This document shows, piece by piece, positions 28,270 to 39,202 of a DNA stretch of 64,000 bases. The notes under the pieces were generated by a model. The model worked only from the letters and a program-made list of their open reading frames with translations. It was not told the DNA's origin and did not search any database. The stretch lies in NCBI GenBank assembly GCA_913053875.1, contig CAJXGN010000005.1, forward strand, positions 62,001 through 126,000, given 5' to 3'. The stretch comes from an uncultured Agromyces sp. (lineage in GTDB: Bacteria; Actinomycetota; Actinomycetes; Actinomycetales; Microbacteriaceae). The translations under genes were made by a program, and so were the position numbers. Numbering within the stretch: the stretch's first letter is position 1; each line of letters begins with the position of its first letter.

Positions 28270-29961
28270 ATGCCTCACGATCCGAAGCCGCGTAGTCGCG
28301 TCGTCACCGACGGCATCGAAGCCACCACCTCCCGGGGCATGCTCCGGGCGGTCGGCATGGGGGATGCGGACTGGGACAAGCCGCAGGTCGGCATCGCCAG
28401 CTCGTGGAACGAGATCACGCCCTGCAACCTCTCGCTCGGCCGCCTCGCGCAGGCCGCGAAGGAGGGCGTGCACGCCGGCGGCGGGTACCCGCTGCAGTTC
28501 GGCACCGTCTCGGTCTCCGACGGCATCTCGATGGGCCACGAGGGCATGCACTTCTCGCTCGTCTCGCGCGAGGTCATCGCCGACTCCGTCGAGGTCGTCA
28601 TGCAGGCCGAGCGCCTCGACGGATCGGTGCTGCTCGCCGGCTGCGACAAGTCGATCCCCGGCATGCTCATGGCCGCCGCACGTCTCGACCTCGCCTCCGT
28701 GTTCCTCTACGCCGGCTCGATCGCGCCCGGCTGGGTGCGCCTGTCGGACGGCACCGAGAAGGACATCACGATCATCGACTCGTTCGAAGCCGTCGGCGCG
28801 GTGAAGGCGGGCAAGATGAGCGAGGCCGACGCCAAGCGCATCGAGTGCGCGTTCGCGCCCGGCGAGGGCGCCTGCGGCGGCATGTACACCGCCAACACCA
28901 TGGCCTCGGTGGCCGAGGCGCTCGGCCTCAGCCTGCCCGGCTCGGCGTCGCCGCCCTCGGCAGACCGTCGCCGCGACTACTTCGCCCACCGATCGGGCGA
29001 GGCGGTCGTCGAGATGCTGAAGCAGGGCATCACCGCCCGGCAGATCCTCACCAAGGAGGCGTTCGAGAACGCCATCGCGGTGGGCATGGCGCTCGGCGGC
29101 TCGACCAACATCGTGCTGCACCTGCTCGCGATCGCCCGCGAGGCCGACGTCGAGCTCACGCTCGCCGACTTCAACCGCATCGGCTCGAGGGTGCCGCACA
29201 TCGGCGACCTCAAGCCGTTCGGACGGTACGTGATGAACGACGTCGACCGTCGCGGCGGCCTGCCGGTGCTCATGAAGGCGCTGCTCGACGCCGGGCTCAT
29301 GCACGGCGACGCGCTCACCGTCACCGGCAAGACGCTCGCCGAGAACCTCGCCGAGATGGACATCGAACCGCTCGACGGCGAGGTGCTGCGCTCGCTCGAC
29401 GACCCGATCCACGAGACCGGCGGCCTCACCATCCTGCACGGCTCGCTCGCGCCCGACGGCGCGGTCGTGAAGACGGCCGGTTTCGACGCGGCCACGTTCG
29501 AGGGCCCCGCGCGGGTGTTCGAGCGCGAACGCGCCGCGATGGACGCCCTCACGAACGGGGAGATCTCGGCCGGCGATGTCGTGGTCATCCGCTACGAGGG
29601 CCCGAAGGGCGGGCCCGGCATGCGCGAGATGCTCGCCATCACGGCGGCCATCAAGGGCGCTGGGCTCGGAAAAGATGTACTACTCTTGACGGACGGCAGA
29701 TTCTCAGGCGGCACAACCGGCCTGTGCATCGGCCACGTAGCACCCGAAGCGGTCGACGCAGGTCCGATCGCCTTCGTGCGCGATGGTGATCTGATACGGG
29801 TCGATATCGCAGCTCGCAGCATCGACCTACTTGTCGACGACGCAGAGCTGGCAGCCCGCCGCGACGGCTGGGCACCGCTTCCCCCGCGCTATACCCGTGG
29901 CGTACTCGCGAAGTACTCCAAGCTCGTGCGGTCGGCCTCCGAAGGCGCGACCACGGGCTGA
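28270..29961 (+). CDS. ilvD: Dihydroxy-acid dehydratase
   Basis: 563 aa iron-sulphur enzyme that forms the 2-keto acids of valine and isoleucine synthesis. Cysteines in EITPCNL (residue 51), GCDKSIPG (near 124) and [13 protein letters not shown] (near 198) are the expected cluster ligands. The C-terminal TDGRFSGGT and HVAPEA motifs are intact. Odd feature: from about base 29660 to the stop, codon use changes sharply to codons such as GGA, AAA, GTA, CTA, TTG, AGA, TCA, ACA, GCA and ATA, rare in the rest of the gene. The protein motifs are kept. First gene of ilvD-ilvB-ilvN-ilvC. Confidence 0.95.
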
Positions 29962-30006
29962 GTCTCGCTCGCATCCGCACGCTTTCGCATCAGAACAGGA
30001 ACTCGC

Positions 30007-31803
30007 ATGTCCACGGACTCGACCACCGTGCCCACGCCAGCCGCCGCCCGACCAGCGGCCCCGGAGACGATGACCGGCGCCCAGGCGGTCGTCCGCTCGC
30101 TCGAGATGCTCGGCATCCGCGACGTCTTCGGCCTGCCCGGCGGCGCGATCCTCCCCGTCTACGACCCGCTGCTCGACGCGCCCGACATCAACCACATCCT
30201 CGTGCGCCACGAGCAGGGCGCGGGCCACGCGGCCGAGGGCTACGCATCGGCCACCGGCAAGGTCGGCGTCGCCATCGCCACCTCGGGCCCCGGCGCGACG
30301 AACCTCGTCACCGCCATCGCCGACGCGCACATGGACTCCGTGCCGCTGCTGGCGATCACCGGCCAGGTGTTCTCGAACCTGATGGGCACGGATGCCTTCC
30401 AGGAGGCCGACATCGTCGGCATCACCATGCCCGTGACGAAGCACTCGTTCCTGGTCAAGCGCGCCGAGGAGATCCCCGGCACCATCGCCGCCGCGTACCA
30501 CATCGCCTCGACCGGTCGCCCCGGCCCGGTGCTCGTGGACATCACGAAGGACGCCCAGCAGGACACGCTCGAGTTCAGCTGGCCGCCCAAGGTCGACCTG
30601 CCCGGCTACCGCCCGATCACGCGCGCCCACGGCAAGCAGGTGCAGGCCGCCGCACAGCTGCTCGCCGAGGCGAAGAAGCCCGTCCTGTACGTCGGCGGCG
30701 GCGTCATCCGCGGCCGCGCCTCCGAGGAGCTGCTCGAGCTCGCCGAGACCACGAACGCCGCCGTCGTGACCACGCTCATGGCCCGCGGCGCGTTCCCCGA
30801 CTCGCACCGGCAGCAGCTCGGCATGCCCGGCATGCACGGCACCGTGCCCGCGGTGCTCGCGCTGCAGGAGGCCGACCTGCTGGTCGCGCTCGGTGCGCGG
30901 TTCGACGACCGCGTCACCGGCAAGGCGGCGCTGTTCGCGCAGAACGCGAAGGTCGTGCACGTCGACATCGACCCGGCCGAGATCTCCAAGATCCGCACCG
31001 CAGACGTGCCGATCGTGGGCGACGTCAAGGACGTCATCACCGAGCTCTCCGCGGCGTACAAGTCCGTGGCATCCGATGTCGACCTGACCGAGTGGTGGAC
31101 CTACCTCGACGGCCTCCGCGACGAGTTCCCACTGGGCTACACGCCCACGAGCGACGGGCTGCTCGCACCGCAGTACGTGATCGAGCGCATCGGCGCGCTG
31201 AGCGGCCCCGAGGCCGTGTACGCCGCCGGCGTCGGCCAGCACCAGATGTGGGCGGCGCAGTTCATCAAGTACGAGCGTCCGAACTCGTGGCTGAACTCCG
31301 GCGGCGCCGGCACGATGGGCTACTCGGTGCCGGCCGCCATGGGCGCCAAGGTGGCCGAGCCGGAGCGCATCGTGTGGGCGATCGACGGCGACGGATGCTT
31401 CCAGATGACGAACCAGGAGCTCGCGACGTGCGCGCTCAACGACATCCCGATCAAGGTCGCGGTGATCAACAACTCGTCGCTGGGCATGGTGCGGCAGTGG
31501 CAGACGCTGTTCTACGACGGCCGCTACTCGAACACCGACCTGAACACGGGGCACGACACCCGCCGCGTGCCCGACTTCGTGAAGCTCGCCGAGGCGTACG
31601 GTGCCCTCGGCATCCGCGTCGAGAAGGAAGAGGAGGTCGACGCCGCGATCGCGCTCGCCCTCGAGACGAACGACCGCCCGGTCGTGATCGACTTCGTCGT
31701 GAGCGCCGACGCGATGGTGTGGCCGATGGTGCCGCAGGGCGTCTCGAACTCCTTCGTGCAGTACGCACGCGACCACAGCCCGGCGTTCGACCAGGAGATC
31801 TAG
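30007..31803 (+). CDS. ilvB: Acetolactate synthase large subunit
   Basis: 598 aa thiamine-diphosphate enzyme for the first common step of branched-chain amino acid synthesis. The catalytic Glu lies in [15 protein letters not shown] near residue 66, and the ThDP/Mg2+ motif is [29 protein letters not shown] near 460. The C-terminal HEL-like WPMVPQG segment is present. AGGAA lies 6 bases before the ATG, 45 bases after ilvD. The first 20 residues are a Thr/Pro/Ala-rich extension. Works with the small subunit encoded 3 bases downstream. Confidence 0.97.
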
Positions 31804-31806
31804 GAA

Positions 31807-32313
31807 ATGTCACACGTGCTCTCCCTCCTCGTCGAGGACAAGCCCGGCCTGCTCACCCGCGTCGCGGGCCTCTTCGCCCGTCGCGGCTTCAATATCGAGT
31901 CGCTCGCCGTCGGCCACTCCGAGATCGAGGGCCTCAGCCGCATCACCGTCGTGGTCGACGTCGAGGACCTGCCGCTCGAGCAGGTGACGAAGCAGCTCAA
32001 CAAGCTCGTCAACGTCATCAAGATCGTCGAGCTCGACCCCGCGCAGTCGGTGCACCGCGAGCACCTGCTGATCAAGGTGCGGGTCGACAACACGACGCGC
32101 TCCCAGGTGCTCGAGGCCGTGAACCTGTTCCGTGCGCGGGTCGTCGACGTGGCGACCGACGCGCTCGTCATCGAGGTGACCGGCGACTCGGGCAAGACCA
32201 CCGCGTTCCTCAAGGTGCTCGAGCCCTACGGCATCAAGGAGATCGCACAGTCGGGCCTGCTCGCCATCGGGCGCGGCCCGAAGGCGATCACCGACCGCGT
32301 GTTCAAGAACTGA
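31807..32313 (+). CDS. ilvN: Acetolactate synthase small subunit
   Basis: 168 aa regulatory subunit. N-terminal ACT domain: HVLSLLVEDKPGLLTRVAGLFARRGFNIESLAVG, where valine binds for feedback control, followed by the second ACT-like domain (HREHLLIKVRV, VIEVTGDSGKTTAFLKVLEPYGIKEIAQSG). Length is typical of the IlvN/IlvH short form. The gap to ilvB is 3 bases, so the two subunits are co-translated. Confidence 0.97.
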   Translation: MSHVLSLLVEDKPGLLTRVAGLFARRGFNIESLAVGHSEIEGLSRITVVVDVEDLPLEQVTKQLNKLVNVIKIVELDPAQSVHREHLLIKVRVDNTTRSQVLEAVNLFRARVVDVATDALVIEVTGDSGKTTAFLKVLEPYGIKEIAQSGLLAIGRGPKAITDRVFKN

Positions 32314-33396
<1,083 letters not shown>

Positions 33397-33549: not shown

Positions 33550-33924
33550 ATGGAGCGCGACGAAGGCGAACACCGCGGGCTCGAGCGCCTGCGGCGGTGG
33601 GTGACCGGCGATGCGCGCGGCGACGCCGATCGGCGCGTCGGCTGGGCGGTGCTCGGTGGAGCGGCCCTGCTGTGCGGCGGTGCCCTGGTGCTGGGGCCGA
33701 CGCTGGCCGGTGCCGGGTCGGGCGCACCTGCTCCGCCGGTCGAGGAGCCGCACCCCGAGGTGCGGACCTCGGTGACGCTGCGCGAGTCGGACTCGACCCG
33801 CGTCGACGGATCCAGGGTCGTCGTCGACGAGTACCTCATGCGCTGCAGCGAGTACTACGAGGTCACGTCGGCGACCCGCACCCTCGAGTGCGTGCCGGTC
33901 GAGGGGGATCCGGCGACGGACTGA
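33550..33924 (+). CDS. Hypothetical single-pass membrane protein, 124 aa
   Basis: A charged N-terminus (about 28 residues), one transmembrane helix (VGWAVLGGAALLCGGALVLGPTLAG) and an extracytoplasmic tail with two cysteines (MRCSEYYE, LECVPVEG). No family recognised. GGGGAGGGG lies 4 bases before the ATG. It converges with the large regulator gene; whether they are related is unknown. Confidence 0.7.
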   Translation: MERDEGEHRGLERLRRWVTGDARGDADRRVGWAVLGGAALLCGGALVLGPTLAGAGSGAPAPPVEEPHPEVRTSVTLRESDSTRVDGSRVVVDEYLMRCSEYYEVTSATRTLECVPVEGDPATD

Positions 33925-33961: not shown

Positions 33962-36900
33962 TCAGCCGGACGCCTCGACCGACCCCCGCACGTCGGCGCA
34001 CGTCGCGACGTACGGTTCGTCGCCGAAGTAGGTCGACCACTCGAGCTCGGTGAGGTCGCGGCCGACCATGCGGCAGGCGGCGTCGCGCATGTGCTCGGTG
34101 CCGATGTCCCAGAGGAGCACGCCCTCCGCGGCATTGGTGGCGAGCATCGTGCCGTCCCGGCTGAGGAAGCCCGACGGCCACCACACGTTCGGACCGCCCG
34201 GCATCTGGATCTCGTCGCCGAGCCGGCGTGCGTCTTCGAGGTCGTAGAGCGTGATCGACTGATCCCATCCCGACGTGAGCAGCGTGCGGCCGTCGGCGCT
34301 GACCTCCATGTGGAGCGGGGCGACGCCGGACTTCGGCAGCGAGTGCAGCGGCTCGAGGTCGCCCGTGCTGCGGTTCAGTCGGGATGCGCTGGCGCTCAGC
34401 GCGTCGCCGTTCGGCAGCCCGACCACGTCGACGTCGTCCTCGAGGCCTTGCGCGAGTTCCTCACCGGTCTCGATGTCGTAGACCGAGGTGAAGGAGCGGC
34501 CGAGTGACTCGTCCCACCAGGTGAACGCCATGCGTCCGCTGTCGCCGAGTACTGCGTGGTCCATGCCGTCCATCCACGCGTTGACGGGCGTCTCGATGAG
34601 GGGCCCGGTCTCGCCGGTGTCCGGATCGATCACCATCATTCCAGCCTGCGTGACCGCGAAGACGTGCGGGCCGCCGCGCTCGAACGGGATCCACCAGTCG
34701 CGACCGGCTGAGCCGGGCATGTCGATCTCGCGAGTCTCATCTGAGCCGACGTCTTGCAGGTAGCGGTCGCCGATTCCGGTCTCGAAGACCGCCACCGTCT
34801 CGTCGGTGACCCAGACCAGCTCGTACACCGGTGCCCCGATCCCCTCGTCGGCGGCGATGTCCCAGAGCTGCATGTCGTCCACGGTCTCGACCAGCGGCGG
34901 GGGAGCCGGCGCGGTGATCAGCATCGTGTCGTCCATGCCGAACCCGCCGATGGCGATCTGGTCCTCCGCGATCGCGCGGGTGATCGACGGGCGCCCGTCG
35001 ACCCGCCAGACGAGGGCGGCGGCCGGGGACCGGGAGGTGAACGTCACGATCTCGCCCCCGTCGCCCACGACGTCGACGCCGCGGTTCCAGTCGGAGAGCG
35101 TGTCGAGCCCGGCGCCGGTCGGCAGGCCGGTCGCGAGGTCGAAGGCGCGGACGAGTCCCACGCCGTTGATGCAGACGAGCACGTCCGGCGGAACGGTCGC
35201 GGCGTTCACGCAGCGCATCTCGCTCGCCTGTCGCCGCCAGAGTTCCTCGCCGGTCTCGAGGTCGACCTTCACGGCGCCCTCGTCTCCGCTCGCGATGAGC
35301 CCGCCGTCGCCATCGGGAGTGAGGGTGAGATGCGCGTACCCGAAGGGCACGTCGCCGAGCATGCCGACCGGCTCGAGCGTCTCCGCGTCGTAGATGGCGA
35401 TGCCGGCGTCGCCCGTCGTGTAGATCCGGTCGTCCACCAGCGCGATGCCATTGGTGCGGAGTCCGCGACCCTCGAACTCGTCGGGGTCGTGCTCGACCAA
35501 CTGGGTGATCTCGCCGGTGCGCAGGTCGATCCACCCCGGGTCGCCGGTGATCGGGTGGTTGAAGTACGCTCGCGAGCCGTCCTCGGTGAGCTCGGGGATC
35601 TGCCCGGTGCGGTCGTCGTAGGTGAGGGTGGGGAACGGCTGCGTCCCGGTCGCGAGGTCGATGACGACGAAGTGGTTCTTGCAGCAGCTCTCCTCGTTCG
35701 GCCGCCGCATCTCGCCGGTCTGGATGAGCGCCGTCGACCCGTCGCCGCTCACGAACACGTCCCGTTCGAAGTTGAAGTTCACCGGGGGCAGTTCCACGTC
35801 GAACTCGCGCAGCGTCTCGCCGGTGTCGAGGTCGATCACGCGGATCGACGCGGGCTCCGTCGGGCCCTCCGCCGTCTCCGCGTCGGTGAGCTCGTCCTCC
35901 ACGATCAGGGCGGTGCGCGTGCCCGGCACGCCGGCGCCGAACGCGCGTGTCCCCTCGCCGAACCAGTGCCGCGCGACCAGGCCGTCGCCGCCGGTCAGGT
36001 TGCCGAGCAGCGCGGAGCGCGCCCGGGCGTCCTCGGGCCAGCGCCGCTGCAGCTCGGCGGCGAGCAGTGCGGCGACGTCGCGATCGCTGTCGCGGATCGC
36101 GAGCGAGGTGGCGGCGAGCGCCTCGATGGTCGCGTCCTCGGCGGCAGCGGATGCCTCGGAGCCGCGCACGACCGCGATGCCGCCGGAGACCACGGCGACG
36201 AGCAGCAGCACCGCGGCGGCGATGAGCGCGCTGCGCAGCCACCGGTTGCGCGTGCGGTCGCGCACCGACCGGGCCTCGAGCTCGCGGACCTCCGCCTCGT
36301 TCCGCTCGATCGATGCGTCGAGGTAGGCGGACTCGATGGGAGTGAGGTCGGGCTGGGCGCTCTCGCGCCACTCGCTGGCACCGTGCAGGCGGGCACCGCG
36401 CAGCAGGTCGTCGTCGGGGCGGCCCGCGGCGTCCCACGCGGCGGCGGCGACCTCGACCTGGCGGAGGACGCGGGCGTTCGCGGCGTCCTCCGTCAGCCAG
36501 CCGTCCAGCCGCGGCCAGGTCGTGCCGACCGCCTCGTGCGCGATGATCGCGGCGTCGCCGTCGATCGTCACCAGTCGCGCGTGCACGAGCCCCTCGACGA
36601 CCGCGCGGCGCTGCGGGTTCGTGCTGAGCGTGGCGAGCGGCACCCGTCGTCGTACGGTCATTCCCTCGGGCGTGCGCTCGACCAGGCGCATCATGAGCGA
36701 CCGGCAGACCTCCTGCCGAGCAGGGGAGAGCCCCTGGAACACCTGCTCCGCCGACTGCGCGATCGCGCCGGCGATGCCGCCGGAGGTCTCGTAGCCGTCG
36801 ACCGTGAGCGTCGCGCCCTCCCGTCTCGACCACGTGGCGACCAGTGCGTGCGAGAGCGGCGGGAGGATGCCGGGGCGGTCACCGGCGTCGCGCAGGATCA

Positions 36901-38209
36901 CCTCGACGAGCCCGGACTCGAGCTCCAGCCCCGCGGCCTCCGCGGGCCGGGCGATCGCTTCGCGCAGCCCGTCGGGGCCGAGCGGTGGCAGCGCGTACAG
37001 TCCGCGCCCGACCAGCGTGCCGAGCGACGGAATCGCGGTCGCGCCGTCGAGGAAGTCGGAGCGGAGCGCCAGCACGAGGCATCCGCCGTGCTCGACCCAT
37101 GCCGCGGACCGCGTGCCGATGTCGCGGAGCTCGTCCTCCGGCAGCATCCGGAACTCCTCGGCCTGGTCGATGCAGACCACCGCCGCACCGCCCGCGAACG
37201 CCGCCCGCAGCTGCTCGGCGCCGCTGGCGCCCGGCGTCACGATCACGACCTCGCGCCCCTGGTCGCGGAGGCGGGGCACGACGCCCGCGCGCACGAGCGA
37301 CGACTTGCCCGAACCGCTCGGTCCGATCACGGTGACCACCGACTGCCGCCCGCAGCGCGAGAGCACCTCCTCGATGTCGCCGTCGCGGCCGAAGAACCAC
37401 GCACGATCGTCGTCGCCGTAGGCGGCGAGGCCGCGGTACGGGCACGCCTCGGAGACCTCCCGCTCGGCGAGCGCGACCGCGGGCGCCTCGAGGTCGGGGT
37501 CCTGGCGCAGCATCGCGGTCTCGAGGTCGACGAGGCTGCGGCTCGGGTCGATGCCGAGGTCGTTCGACAGCCGTTCGCGCGCGCCGCGGATCACGGCCAT
37601 GGCCTCGGCCTGCCGGTCGGCGCGGTAGTTCGCGAGCGCGAGGATCGCCCAGCGGTGCTCGCGCAGCGGCTCCTCGCGCACCAGCCGCTCCGCGTCGGCG
37701 ATCACCGCGCCGCGCTCGCCGGCCGCCAGCCGCGCATCGAGCAGCTCCTCCTCGGCGCTCCGGCGCACCTCGACCAGGCGGGCGGCCTCGATCGCGGCGG
37801 GCGGCCAGTCCGCGGCATCCGGCAGCGGAGCCCCGCGCCAGAGCGCGAGGGCCTTCTCGAAGCCGGCCGCGGCGCGATCGTGCGCGCCCTGGAGCGCGTG
37901 TCGGCGGGACTGTGCGACCGCCTGCTCGAACTGCACCGCGTCGATCGCGTCCGCGTCGAGGCCGAGCCGGTAGTCGACGCCCACGGTGCGCACCGCCTCG
38001 GCGCCGAGCTTCGACCGGATCTTCGCCACGGCGTTCCGCACCTGCTGCGCCCACGTGGCAGGCGGCTCGTCGCCCCAGCACGCTCCTGCGAGCTCGTCGG
38101 GGGAGACGGCGGCCTCGCGCCGTACGATGAGCGCGGTCAGGATGGTGCGTTCCCTCGGGCTCAGCGAGGGGCCGCCCGTGTCCATCGGTCCCAGGATGCG
38201 CATGCTCAT
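33962..38209 (-). CDS. BTAD-domain regulator with STAND ATPase, membrane helix and beta-propeller
   Basis: 1415 aa. Residues 1-95 are an OmpR-like winged helix, as in SARP/AfsR regulators (LSPRERTILTALIVRREAAVSPDELAGACWG). Residues 96-240 are the bacterial transcriptional activation domain (ALALWRGAPLPD, EPLREHRWAILALANYRADRQAEA). Residues about 255-630 are a STAND-type NTPase with Walker A GPSGSGKSS at 295-303 and Walker B VVCIDQAEEF near 345-354. One transmembrane helix lies at 658-681. The remaining 700 residues are WD40/PQQ-like propeller repeats (IRVIDLDTGETLREF, VKVDLETGEELWRR, VMVIDPDTGETG-like units). This layout puts the DNA-binding end inside and the propeller outside the cell. Divergent from a lipoprotein gene across a repeat-rich promoter. 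Codon use is looser than in housekeeping neighbours. Confidence 0.88.
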   Translation of the reverse strand: MSMRILGPMDTGGPSLSPRERTILTALIVRREAAVSPDELAGACWGDEPPATWAQQVRNAVAKIRSKLGAEAVRTVGVDYRLGLDADAIDAVQFEQAVAQSRRHALQGAHDRAAAGFEKALALWRGAPLPDAADWPPAAIEAARLVEVRRSAEEELLDARLAAGERGAVIADAERLVREEPLREHRWAILALANYRADRQAEAMAVIRGARERLSNDLGIDPSRSLVDLETAMLRQDPDLEAPAVALAEREVSEACPYRGLAAYGDDDRAWFFGRDGDIEEVLSRCGRQSVVTVIGPSGSGKSSLVRAGVVPRLRDQGREVVIVTPGASGAEQLRAAFAGGAAVVCIDQAEEFRMLPEDELRDIGTRSAAWVEHGGCLVLALRSDFLDGATAIPSLGTLVGRGLYALPPLGPDGLREAIARPAEAAGLELESGLVEVILRDAGDRPGILPPLSHALVATWSRREGATLTVDGYETSGGIAGAIAQSAEQVFQGLSPARQEVCRSLMMRLVERTPEGMTVRRRVPLATLSTNPQRRAVVEGLVHARLVTIDGDAAIIAHEAVGTTWPRLDGWLTEDAANARVLRQVEVAAAAWDAAGRPDDDLLRGARLHGASEWRESAQPDLTPIESAYLDASIERNEAEVRELEARSVRDRTRNRWLRSALIAAAVLLLVAVVSGGIAVVRGSEASAAAEDATIEALAATSLAIRDSDRDVAALLAAELQRRWPEDARARSALLGNLTGGDGLVARHWFGEGTRAFGAGVPGTRTALIVEDELTDAETAEGPTEPASIRVIDLDTGETLREFDVELPPVNFNFERDVFVSGDGSTALIQTGEMRRPNEESCCKNHFVVIDLATGTQPFPTLTYDDRTGQIPELTEDGSRAYFNHPITGDPGWIDLRTGEITQLVEHDPDEFEGRGLRTNGIALVDDRIYTTGDAGIAIYDAETLEPVGMLGDVPFGYAHLTLTPDGDGGLIASGDEGAVKVDLETGEELWRRQASEMRCVNAATVPPDVLVCINGVGLVRAFDLATGLPTGAGLDTLSDWNRGVDVVGDGGEIVTFTSRSPAAALVWRVDGRPSITRAIAEDQIAIGGFGMDDTMLITAPAPPPLVETVDDMQLWDIAADEGIGAPVYELVWVTDETVAVFETGIGDRYLQDVGSDETREIDMPGSAGRDWWIPFERGGPHVFAVTQAGMMVIDPDTGETGPLIETPVNAWMDGMDHAVLGDSGRMAFTWWDESLGRSFTSVYDIETGEELAQGLEDDVDVVGLPNGDALSASASRLNRSTGDLEPLHSLPKSGVAPLHMEVSADGRTLLTSGWDQSITLYDLEDARRLGDEIQMPGGPNVWWPSGFLSRDGTMLATNAAEGVLLWDIGTEHMRDAACRMVGRDLTELEWSTYFGDEPYVATCADVRGSVEASG

Positions 38210-38259
38210 GCCAGCAGTGTCGAGAAATCGTCAGGTAGTCGTCAATGCTGCCCGGCTCG

Positions 38260-38303
38260 CACGGATATCGCACGGATATCGGCCGATCGTCCACCGATAT
38301 CCG
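38260..38303. promoter_or_regulatory. CGGATATCG direct and inverted repeats in the divergent promoter
   Basis: Two direct copies of CGGATATCG begin at 38262 and 38273, exactly 11 bases apart. The second extends to CGGATATCGG and is matched by its reverse complement CCGATATCCG at 38294-38303. Direct repeats with 11-bp pitch are the known recognition style of SARP-type winged-helix regulators, and this site lies between the BTAD regulator and the lipoprotein gene. Confidence 0.65.
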
Positions 38304-38356
38304 CGATTGCGAGCGTGAAACCAGACGCCGGAACGGTTCCGGCCGAAGGGAGCATC

Positions 38357-38758
38357 ATGAACACTCGCATCCGAATCCGCCGGGCTCGCACCGTTCGCGC
38401 CTCGGCTGGGATCGCACTGGCAGCGGGGGTCGCACTCGCGATCACCGCCTGCGGCGCCGGCGCGACGGCCGGTCCGCAGGCGCCCGGTTCGGGCGGCGCG
38501 AACGCGGCTCGCCCCGCCTACGTCTCTCACCTCGCCCCCGCCGACCGCCTCGAGCAGGCGATCCTCCAGGAGGTGGAGCACCGCCGGGCACTCGCCGACG
38601 AGTACTCGGGGCTGCCGGCCGACCGCATCGAGCAGCGCCTCGTCGCCGAGACCGGTCGCACGGCCCGCAGCCTGAAGGAATGTGCGGCGCTCGCGCTCGC
38701 GCAGCGTCCGCTGGTGACTGCCGACACGGCCGAGCGCCTCATCGGGGGCTTGTGCTGA
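38357..38758 (+). CDS. Small lipoprotein, 133 aa, divergent from the BTAD regulator
   Basis: An Arg-rich N-terminus, a hydrophobic helix and the lipobox LAITAC at residues about 28-33 predict lipid anchoring. The mature part is about 100 residues, mostly helical (LEQAILQEVEHRRALADEYSGLPADRIEQRLVAETGRTARSLKECAALALAQR), with two further cysteines. No family recognised. GAAGGGAG lies 6 bases before the ATG. Its promoter shares the CGGATATCG repeats with the regulator gene, so it is the likeliest target, which is inference. Confidence 0.72.
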   Translation: MNTRIRIRRARTVRASAGIALAAGVALAITACGAGATAGPQAPGSGGANAARPAYVSHLAPADRLEQAILQEVEHRRALADEYSGLPADRIEQRLVAETGRTARSLKECAALALAQRPLVTADTAERLIGGLC

Positions 38759-38791: not shown

Positions 38792-39202
38792 ATGACCCGA
38801 TCCGACGACGACGCCCTGCACTGGGCGGGCGACGAGGATGCCGAGCTCGCACCCGGGTGGAAGCCCGTCGGCGAGCCGGCCCTCGTGCAGCCGGCGCCCG
38901 ATGAGCCCGACGAGCCTGCCATGAGCGCCACGACGCTCGTGCTGTTCGGCGTGTTCGCGGGCGTCTTCCTGCTGTACTCGGCCGGCTGGGCGTTATCCGC
39001 CCTGCAGCCGGGGCCGGCCTTCGCCGACCCGGTCGCGCAGGTCATGTACGACGTCGGCCGGTGGCTGGCCGTGATCTCGGCGCCCCTGTGGTTCGCCTGC
39101 GTGCTGCTGGTGGCGCACGGCCGAACGCGGCTGTGGTGGCTCCTGGCGGGCGTGCTGGTGCTGGCGCCGTTGCCGTTCGTGTTCGACGGGGGGCTCGCAT
39201 GA
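38792..39202 (+). CDS. Hypothetical membrane protein, 136 aa
   Basis: An acidic N-terminus of about 45 residues, then three hydrophobic helices (TTLVLFGVFAGVFLLYSAGWAL, WLAVISAPLWFACVLLVA and LWWLLAGVLVLAPLPFVF). No family recognised. The ATG at 38792 is preferred because of the TATCGT box 7 bases upstream. The stop overlaps the next start (ATGA), so the two small membrane proteins are probably made together. Confidence 0.7.
   Translation: MTRSDDDALHWAGDEDAELAPGWKPVGEPALVQPAPDEPDEPAMSATTLVLFGVFAGVFLLYSAGWALSALQPGPAFADPVAQVMYDVGRWLAVISAPLWFACVLLVAHGRTRLWWLLAGVLVLAPLPFVFDGGLA

Follow-up and report, generated by a model that had tools for sequence, protein, structure and literature searches.

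In a 64,000-nucleotide stretch of DNA from an uncultured Agromyces sp. (contig CAJXGN010000005.1, positions 62,001 to 126,000; hereafter the window), a gene for a large regulator stands back to back with a gene for a small lipoprotein. The locus raises the question of whether the two genes form one unit and, if so, what the lipoprotein is to the regulator. A first-pass annotation, made from the sequence alone, had read the pair as a membrane-tethered sensor with its own divergent lipoprotein, and had named the lipoprotein as candidate ligand, inhibitor or target. Comparison across related genomes supports a conserved unit of regulator and divergent lipoprotein gene, and this pairing, rather than the membrane topology, is the real find. 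The lipoprotein gene is very probably a direct target of the regulator, and its product may also be the regulator's ligand. The two genes, for which the first-pass coordinates were confirmed, are as follows.

33962..38209, minus strand: regulator gene, 1415 aa, ATG start; winged helix-turn-helix (wHTH), BTAD, nSTAND1, predicted transmembrane helix, linker and two predicted propellers
38357..38758, plus strand: divergent lipoprotein gene, 133 aa, ATG start; signal peptide, lipobox ITAC, Cys32

Pairing of the regulator and lipoprotein genes

The start codons of the two window genes lie 147 nt apart in divergent orientation. The DNA upstream of each related regulator was read, and a lipoprotein-like open reading frame (ORF) starting 40-260 nt away on the opposite strand was counted as a partner. 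Such a gene was present beside 42 of 66 related regulators, many of which are paralogues or close relatives and hence not independent. Recurrent adjacency, which the first-pass annotation had put forward as a test of its proposal, was therefore found. Among 55 other genes on the same loci, from which regulators had been removed by BLAST, four passed a looser rule, and three of these were one antisense ORF upstream of ilvC, an artefact. The gap between start codons was 93-115 nt in 25 pairs (112-115 nt in 23), 132-164 nt in 16 (146-152 nt in 13) and 232 nt in one, with distances off in G043b, G043e, G078, G087 and G089, where the aligned position taken as the start has no start codon. A start codon 12 codons upstream in G043b would give 113 nt, and the 147 nt of G006 includes a 33-bp doubling of the operator.

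Of the 66 regulators, the relatives search contributed 46, the family search eight and the set of 26 named loci that were read 12. Left out were a loose C-terminal piece (G013a), G092, in which no SARP head was matched, L092, whose start is cut off, and L094, L097 and L098, which repeat Agromyces genomes already counted. Ten more distant loci (L107, L108, L110-L113, L128, L130, L154 and L165) were excluded after the absence of a close divergent lipoprotein gene was already visible, L110 having only 375 nt of upstream sequence; counting these ten too, the lipoprotein gene is found at 42 of 76 loci and the operator repeat pair described below at 52 of 76.

The window lipoprotein (P0003) had strong matches in six of 100 genomes, the window's included, always divergent to an orthologous regulator. 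As a family finder the pairwise search was rejected, since at E <= 0.001 it reached 12 of the 100 genomes with only six real partners; the weaker matches (E 1e-5 to 7e-4) fell within residues 3-108, mostly at the signal-peptide end. Three regulators outside the 42 (G057d, G034b and G013c) are preceded by a lipoprotein gene in the same orientation. The divergent gene in Demequina L099, Knoellia L101 and Nocardioides L102 encodes a secreted-looking protein lacking a lipobox, and the repeat pair is still present in the gap.

Putative operator and promoters of the intergenic gap

The gap between the two genes holds the following elements.

38241..38245, minus strand: TTGAC, likely -35 of the regulator promoter (GTCAA on the plus strand, conserved near regulator starts)
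38263..38270, plus strand: putative SARP operator copy 1, GGATATCG; direct repeat, core RTAYC
38274..38281, plus strand: putative SARP operator copy 2, GGATATCG; 11 bp from copy 1
38295..38302, plus strand: putative SARP operator copy 3, CGATATCC; core 21 bp from copy 2
38311..38316, plus strand: putative -10 of the lipoprotein promoter, GAGCGT; 8 bp after copy 3

The layout published for SARP operators spaces the repeats by 11 or 22 bp and places the 3' copy 8 bp from the -10; for the afsS promoter a suboptimal -10 is described (PMC10936776). The PimR operator, as given in the available portion of PMC5930380, has three heptamers (CGGCAAG) with 4-bp spacers. By its sequence, the gap of the window matches the SARP layout, and its spacing of 11 then 21 bp is a small departure that is common to its clade. 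An 11-bp repeat pair of the core RTAYC was detected in 52 of the 66 upstream regions, where first-order Markov sequences predict 0.05. The third copy was present in 47 of 66 against an expected 0 on the same model, 22 bp further on in 30 and 21 bp in 17, the latter class (the window's own clade) having been admitted to the count after inspection of the window sequence. In 41 of 46 triple operators the -10-like pattern xAxxxT follows the third heptamer at a distance of exactly 8 bp, and it was found at none of the other offsets from 4 to 12; the 8-bp register was set in line with the published layout, with the remaining offsets serving as the control. On the regulator side, TTGAC was located 24-40 nt from the start in 58 of 66 regions, 55 of them at 30-31 nt.

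The operator copies read towards the lipoprotein gene. Because a conserved SARP operator faces this gene and is absent in distant relatives, the lipoprotein gene is very probably a direct target of the regulator, which bears out one of the three roles first proposed for it. By analogy with described SARPs, the regulator head would bind the repeats and activate transcription. Operator and wHTH sequences were found to co-vary across 48 regulators (Mantel r 0.46, 0 of 5000 permutations), as expected if each regulator reads its own site, with linked inheritance contributing.

A search of the window's genome with the pattern ATAYC-N6-ATAYC gave four sites (the window gap, which is palindromic, taken as a single site), compared to one for a reversed control, and the operator was accordingly rejected as the sole genomic site. 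One of the other places precedes a second, unlinked lipoprotein gene of 179 aa (L180/L185; G000:C1:140097-140700), where a two-copy operator is followed by xAxxxT 8 bp after the 3' repeat copy. This repeat pair is retained in three species, with orthologues in G005 and G023, in the latter amid changed flanks; G015, which has a window-type regulator, does not have the second lipoprotein gene. Relatives of the second lipoprotein in G034, G013 and G057 adjoin the upstream side of their own one-propeller regulator. The window's genome contains only one BTAD gene, which makes the window regulator the natural controller of both lipoprotein genes, and the second gene probably answers to it too. The self-contained unit of the first-pass annotation consequently holds as a conserved pair and not as a strictly closed circuit. 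At the C2 site no repeat-plus-gene setting was visible, and the repeat pair that precedes a gene for a PadR-like regulator (named by eye; L184, G000:C23:3060-3075) may be due to chance.

Motif repeats of the lipoproteins

Two motif copies and one related motif were located in the mature part of the window lipoprotein.

38537..38572, plus strand: motif copy 1, PADRLEQAILQE, residues 61-72; self-repeat test z 4.7, p 0.005
38615..38650, plus strand: motif copy 2, PADRIEQRLVAE, residues 87-98; same self-repeat test
38717..38740, plus strand: related motif TADTAERL, residues 121-128; seen by reading, outside the statistical test

The product has the predicted signal peptide and lipobox cysteine of a bacterial lipoprotein, and A31 and C32 were invariant in nine aligned lipoproteins. 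The mature protein has 102 residues from Cys32. No Pfam family was detected for it up to E 0.1, and none reached the cut-off for four partner lipoproteins; the scores for NF058595 of NCBIfam (window lipoprotein, 16.5 bits, cut-off 37) and Pfam PF19317 (partner lipoprotein L172, 23.7 bits, cut-off 25.9) were taken as chance. The structural model was poor (pLDDT 52, pTM 0.27), with short helices that start near each motif and are too weak to lean on, and the lipoprotein is probably mostly unfolded. TADTAERL was retained in the window lipoprotein and five orthologues, with S for A in L051.

Significant internal repeats (p <= 0.05, self-comparison against 200 shuffles) were present in 26 of the 42 partner lipoproteins, 20 of them at the floor of p 0.005, and were not detected by the same comparison in two lipoproteins of the second type used as contrast. 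The motifs differ by clade, with several copies each: PADR(L/I) in the window's clade, and ADRYVxEL, DxAERR, DNDPRGxH and DDLSP in others. Between repeat copies of 18 lipoproteins, picked by hand, different codons were used at 116 of 286 identical residue comparisons, so that the repeats persist at the protein level and cannot all stem from recent copying of DNA. In L027 (G006) a 33-bp tandem duplication appears to have doubled the operator, and the lipoprotein at this locus contains three near-identical repeats of 25 residues.

A motif class could be assigned by eye to 37 of the 42 lipoproteins (G005, G013a, G044, G049b and G087 remained unassigned), and of the 37 corresponding regulators, 34 had sufficient length to enter both a cytosolic and a propeller tree. 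Motif class tracked the regulator phylogeny, with eight changes on the cytosolic tree (20.8 when shuffled) and nine on the propeller tree (20.7 when shuffled). As evidence for cognate pairing via the propeller this pattern was rejected, as the motif label clustered on both trees with no preference for the propeller tree. One chimera, picked post hoc, carries a window-type propeller on the cytosolic half of another clade (G009d), and its partner motif DVAERR resembles TADTAERL. The motif repeats and clade-matched classes are suggestive of a ligand or inhibitor role for the lipoprotein.

Architecture of the regulator

The regulator gene is divided as follows, with the topology predicted.

37985..38167, minus strand: OmpR-type winged helix, residues 15-75; Pfam PF00486 Trans_reg_C, 28.8 bits, cut-off 26.2
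37511..37945, minus strand: BTAD, residues 89-233; Pfam PF03704, 102.7 bits, cut-off 22.1
36413..37441, minus strand: nSTAND1 NTPase, residues 257-599, Walker A/B intact; Pfam PF20703, 322.4 bits, cut-off 27.1
36167..36229, minus strand: predicted single membrane helix, residues 661-681; Kyte-Doolittle hydropathy
34994..35989, minus strand: predicted propeller 1, outside, residues 741-1072; AlphaFold2 model residues 58-389, match to PkwA WD40 (5yzv)
34106..34993, minus strand: predicted propeller 2, outside, about residues 1073-1368; strand pattern of the model, Foldseek double-propeller matches

Pfam, hydropathy and AlphaFold2 agree with the single chain of SARP head, STAND NTPase, one helix and outside propeller that had been described at first pass. 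The chain begins with the hallmark of the SARP family, an OmpR-type wHTH followed by BTAD, both above Pfam cut-offs, and AfsR and EmbR were the best solved relatives of this head. The following domain belongs to nSTAND1, well above the cut-off. Its Walker motifs, already described as intact, are present as GPSGSGKSS (A) and VVCIDQAEE (B), and G296, S298, G299, G301, K302, S303 and D348 were invariant in 16 aligned homologues. Hydropathy peaked at 2.79 at residue 663 in a 19-residue Kyte-Doolittle window, compared to 1.48 for the next best position elsewhere; the resulting helix at residues 661-681 falls where a transmembrane segment had been expected (residues 658-681). The Arg-rich flank RSVRDRTRNRWLR lies N-terminal to the helix and an acidic flank follows it, so that the C-terminal half, comprising the last 730 residues, should be outside the cell.

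The membrane helix was found in 43 of 46 regulator homologues read. The remaining three were frame-shifted or cut off: G005 near codon 137, G013a at a contig end, and G019b by a frame shift at the helix itself. Among wider relatives (best 80 kept), all 79 readable loci had a hydropathy peak of >=1.6 in the segment that joins nSTAND1 to the C-terminal domain, with 75 reaching >=2.0, by a generous test that took the best window within a stretch of up to 180 residues and included a few loci with little sequence after the peak. This topology is therefore a property of nSTAND1-propeller proteins and not of this gene, and an unusual topology was rejected as the main point. The G005 orthologue (L049 6824-11061), in which the frame shift reflects sequencing error or real loss, retains lipoprotein and operator. 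Two other regulators (L058 9791-13853 and L052 10170-14428) are split into cytosolic and outside pieces in different frames, one being broken at the membrane helix.

The outside part of 730 residues was modelled by AlphaFold2 from 43 sequences with a mean pLDDT of 89.5 and a pTM of 0.88. The model runs from linker helices through a WD40-type propeller and a second propeller to short terminal helices. Residues 741-1072 matched the WD40 domain of PkwA (5yzv; Z 26.9, rmsd 2.9 over 278) and Gbeta (Z about 26), as expected for a WD40-type propeller fold. None of the matches listed for this comparison covered propeller 2 by itself, an absence that carries no weight. The second propeller is predicted from its strand pattern and from Foldseek matches of the whole outside part to tandem double propellers, including Apaf-1 (3sfz, 3shf; E about 1e-17, identity 13-14%); the TM-score of only about 0.3 indicates that the mutual orientation of the two halves is not common to these matches. 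Outside cysteine pairs C1000/C1013 and C1379/C1404 were invariant or nearly so among homologues, and terminal branches were longer in the outside part (median 0.38) than in the cytosolic part (0.16). Shorter homologues of 1114-1121 aa (G034b, G057d, G013c and L093) are missing the second propeller. One of them, L093, is nevertheless paired with a PADR-type lipoprotein, so that the first propeller may be the one that matters.

Proposed circuit and alternative explanations

The reading we favour, with a probability of roughly 0.45, is a two-gene autoregulatory receptor circuit with positive feedback, in which the lipoprotein serves as the propeller ligand. The regulator would span the membrane, with its SARP head and nSTAND1 NTPase inside and its two propellers outside, and the lipoprotein, with at least two copies of the short motif, would be tethered to that membrane from the outside. 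Binding of this motif by the propellers would cluster the receptors because the motif is multi-copy; the STAND NTPase would then oligomerise and bring the SARP heads together, by analogy with STAND proteins and SARPs generally. Once paired, the heads would occupy the 11-bp repeats and bring RNA polymerase to the lipoprotein promoter with its weak -10, activation being suggested by the SARP layout. The outcome would be positive feedback, with the lipoprotein as both signal and output, and in the window's genome the second lipoprotein gene would probably come under the same regulator.

Several observations weigh against such a circuit. The data give no sign, positive or negative, to the feedback, and the binding of lipoprotein by propeller is what we infer. 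As motif class fits the cytosolic tree equally well, co-inheritance of linked genes explains its match to the regulators without contact between the proteins. No significant repeat was detected in 16 of the 42 lipoproteins, including G015a and G023, orthologues of the window's own. Array members G009b, G043d and G057a have upstream repeats with no adjoining lipoprotein gene seen, and the regulator G037 faces a glyoxalase-like gene (named by eye). The repeat pair is missing in 14 of the 66 upstream regions, including all five of Nocardioides L100, Kribbella, two Herbidospora and Lentzea, and the ten more distant relatives have neither divergent lipoprotein gene nor 11-bp repeat pair, so that the operator belongs to this branch, mostly Micrococcales as judged by name or survey rank, and not to all SARP-nSTAND1 proteins.

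The lipoprotein could instead be a target only, a response protein made when the propellers sense some other cue, such as a cell-wall part, a sugar or envelope stress. The operator speaks only for a target relation, and the secreted-looking proteins in the divergent place in L099, L101 and L102 are as expected of an output, as are the larger lipoproteins of G029b, L177 and L178, which carry no significant repeats, and a similar large one in G001. We nevertheless consider this explanation somewhat unlikely: the window-genome sites in a promoter-like setting precede lipoprotein genes (one pattern was searched), and repeats kept as protein through changed codons are not required of a plain response protein.

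The same anatomy, with both partners facing the same side of one membrane, would also serve negative feedback, and a divergent, tightly spaced pair suits an inhibitor made on demand. Here the lipoprotein would silence the regulator, and its loss, degradation or removal would switch the regulator on and restore it, as in a homeostatic monitor of the envelope or of lipoprotein export. Multi-copy motifs fit receptor clustering better than one-to-one silencing, and this arrangement appears quite improbable. Finally, a conflict system, in which the nSTAND1 receptor detects an invader at the surface, the lipoprotein blocks the receptor and arrays diversify at one site, recalls the naming of nSTAND1 in a survey of such systems (PMC8195603, in the part available) and the tandem arrays at the ilvC-serA site with empty sites in other species, but is very improbable, as PADLOC gave only weak P-loop matches (best E 0.00092, not most of the model length), the Pfam scan of the chain yielded no nuclease, protease or toxin domain, and the likely output, transcription of one or two small genes, is slow for defence.

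Distribution and genomic setting

The regulator family was detected in 28 of 100 relatives at E <= 1e-60 and in 24 of 60 Agromyces genomes at E <= 1e-100. Across 398 genomes sampled from the host's family it was present in at least 11, four of them Agromyces, a lower bound since two candidates were scored per genome. Relatives with a membrane helix, matching from the SARP head onward, were also found in Microbacterium, Demequina, Nocardioides, Knoellia, Kribbella, Herbidospora, Lentzea, Planotetraspora and Nonomuraea.

In ten genomes, which account for 11 of the 16 larger loci, and in the window itself, the modules are flanked by ilvC on one side and, on the other, by a gene for a small membrane protein that precedes serA, a count that takes modules beside whichever anchor genes the stretch read reaches; the other five (L052, L059-L062) showed no anchors of this site within the stretch read. 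One to four modules per genome occupy the site, and in G057 the small gene stands between modules. Among ten Agromyces genomes with no regulator, the small gene preceded serA in all ten, and ilvC was within reach in four, adjoining the small gene in two and about 1 kb off in two. The distribution suggests that the module has been gained, lost and multiplied mainly at this site. Arrays in which three or four regulator genes follow one another in tandem, with differing partner lipoproteins, occur at L053/L054, L055 and L056 (ilvC-serA) and at L052 (G009; no anchors in the stretch read). Neighbouring genes in the window are listed below.

28270-33396, plus strand: ilvD, ilvB, ilvN and ilvC, directly beside the module; no functional link seen
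33550-33924, plus strand: 124-aa small membrane-anchored protein, encoded between ilvC and the regulator gene and convergent with the latter; the corresponding position holds similar sequence in G005 and, two times over, in G015; no Pfam match above the cut-off
38792-39202, plus strand: small membrane protein starting MTRSDDDALHWAGDE; precedes serA with or without the module in the Agromyces examined

Comparison with known systems

Each domain of the regulator is already known, and its SARP operator is of a published kind. The first-pass annotation had taken AfsR, a large SARP of Streptomyces, as the reference architecture. AfsR does share the wHTH-BTAD head with a STAND-type NTPase behind it, and an operator of 11-bp repeats whose 3' copy lies 8 bp from a weak -10 and which controls the small gene afsS (PMC10936776, available portion). 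As described there, AfsR has NOD and TPR parts, in contrast to the nSTAND1 domain, membrane helix and two propellers of the window regulator, which scored 115 against a cut-off of 1430 with the NCBIfam AfsR model. Membership of AfsR was thus rejected beyond the SARP head, given the missing NOD-TPR part and this low equivalog score. The contrast originally drawn with AfsR stands, whereas the topology on which it was based is ordinary among closer relatives, and AfsR is not the closest architecture. The nSTAND1-TM-propeller proteins of Actinomycetota, Chloroflexota and a few other groups have the same NTPase, the same helix position and mostly a long C-terminal part; many differ in having only about 100-130 residues before the NTPase, and hence no SARP head. 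PimR-type SARP-LAL regulators are similar in their three-heptamer operator, large ATP-binding part and unique target gene pimM, and differ in that the available part of the source describes no membrane helix or propeller (PMC5930380).

ToxR and CadC work in a similar mode, with an inside winged helix, one membrane helix and an outside sensor in a single chain (PMC7888679, PMC8517210, PMC5430869; each in the part available). The regulator, with its predicted topology, fits this one-component mode and not the lineage. ToxR/CadC regulators are not known to have a BTAD, NTPase or propeller. ToxS is a partner of ToxR and is not known as a repeat lipoprotein. In the self-amplifying Rgg/SHP and ComR/ComS systems the regulator activates a divergent or neighbouring small gene whose product is exported, and these systems sense re-imported peptides inside the cell via TPR domains, whereas the presumed sensor of the window regulator is outside. 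An RRNPP-type pheromone system was rejected on this ground and because no TPR family was detected in the Pfam scan of the regulator up to E 0.1. Apaf-1 also has a STAND NTPase followed by tandem WD40 propellers; it is cytosolic, and is not known to have a membrane helix or DNA-binding head. A known anti-phage defence system was likewise rejected, with PADLOC matches confined to P-loop stretches.

Membrane STAND proteins with outside propellers appear common in Actinomycetota. Searches of the open-licence literature yielded no ligand or target for any such protein, and no SARP/BTAD-nSTAND1-propeller membrane receptor with a dedicated motif-repeat lipoprotein. In the widest interpretation, which we hold to be rather doubtful, the lipoproteins would be multi-copy peptide signals and the membrane STAND receptor an outside sensor that is itself the transcription factor; array paralogues with the classes PADR, ADRYV, AERR, DPRG and DLSP would then be insulated channels, each with its own ligand, receptor and operator, in a diversifying set for self-recognition or cell-cell signalling. 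For these receptors the present comparison supplies a likely target gene, an operator at base-pair level and a ligand candidate with defined motif repeats. If the lipoprotein is indeed the ligand, a STAND receptor would act as the transcription factor for its own multi-copy ligand.

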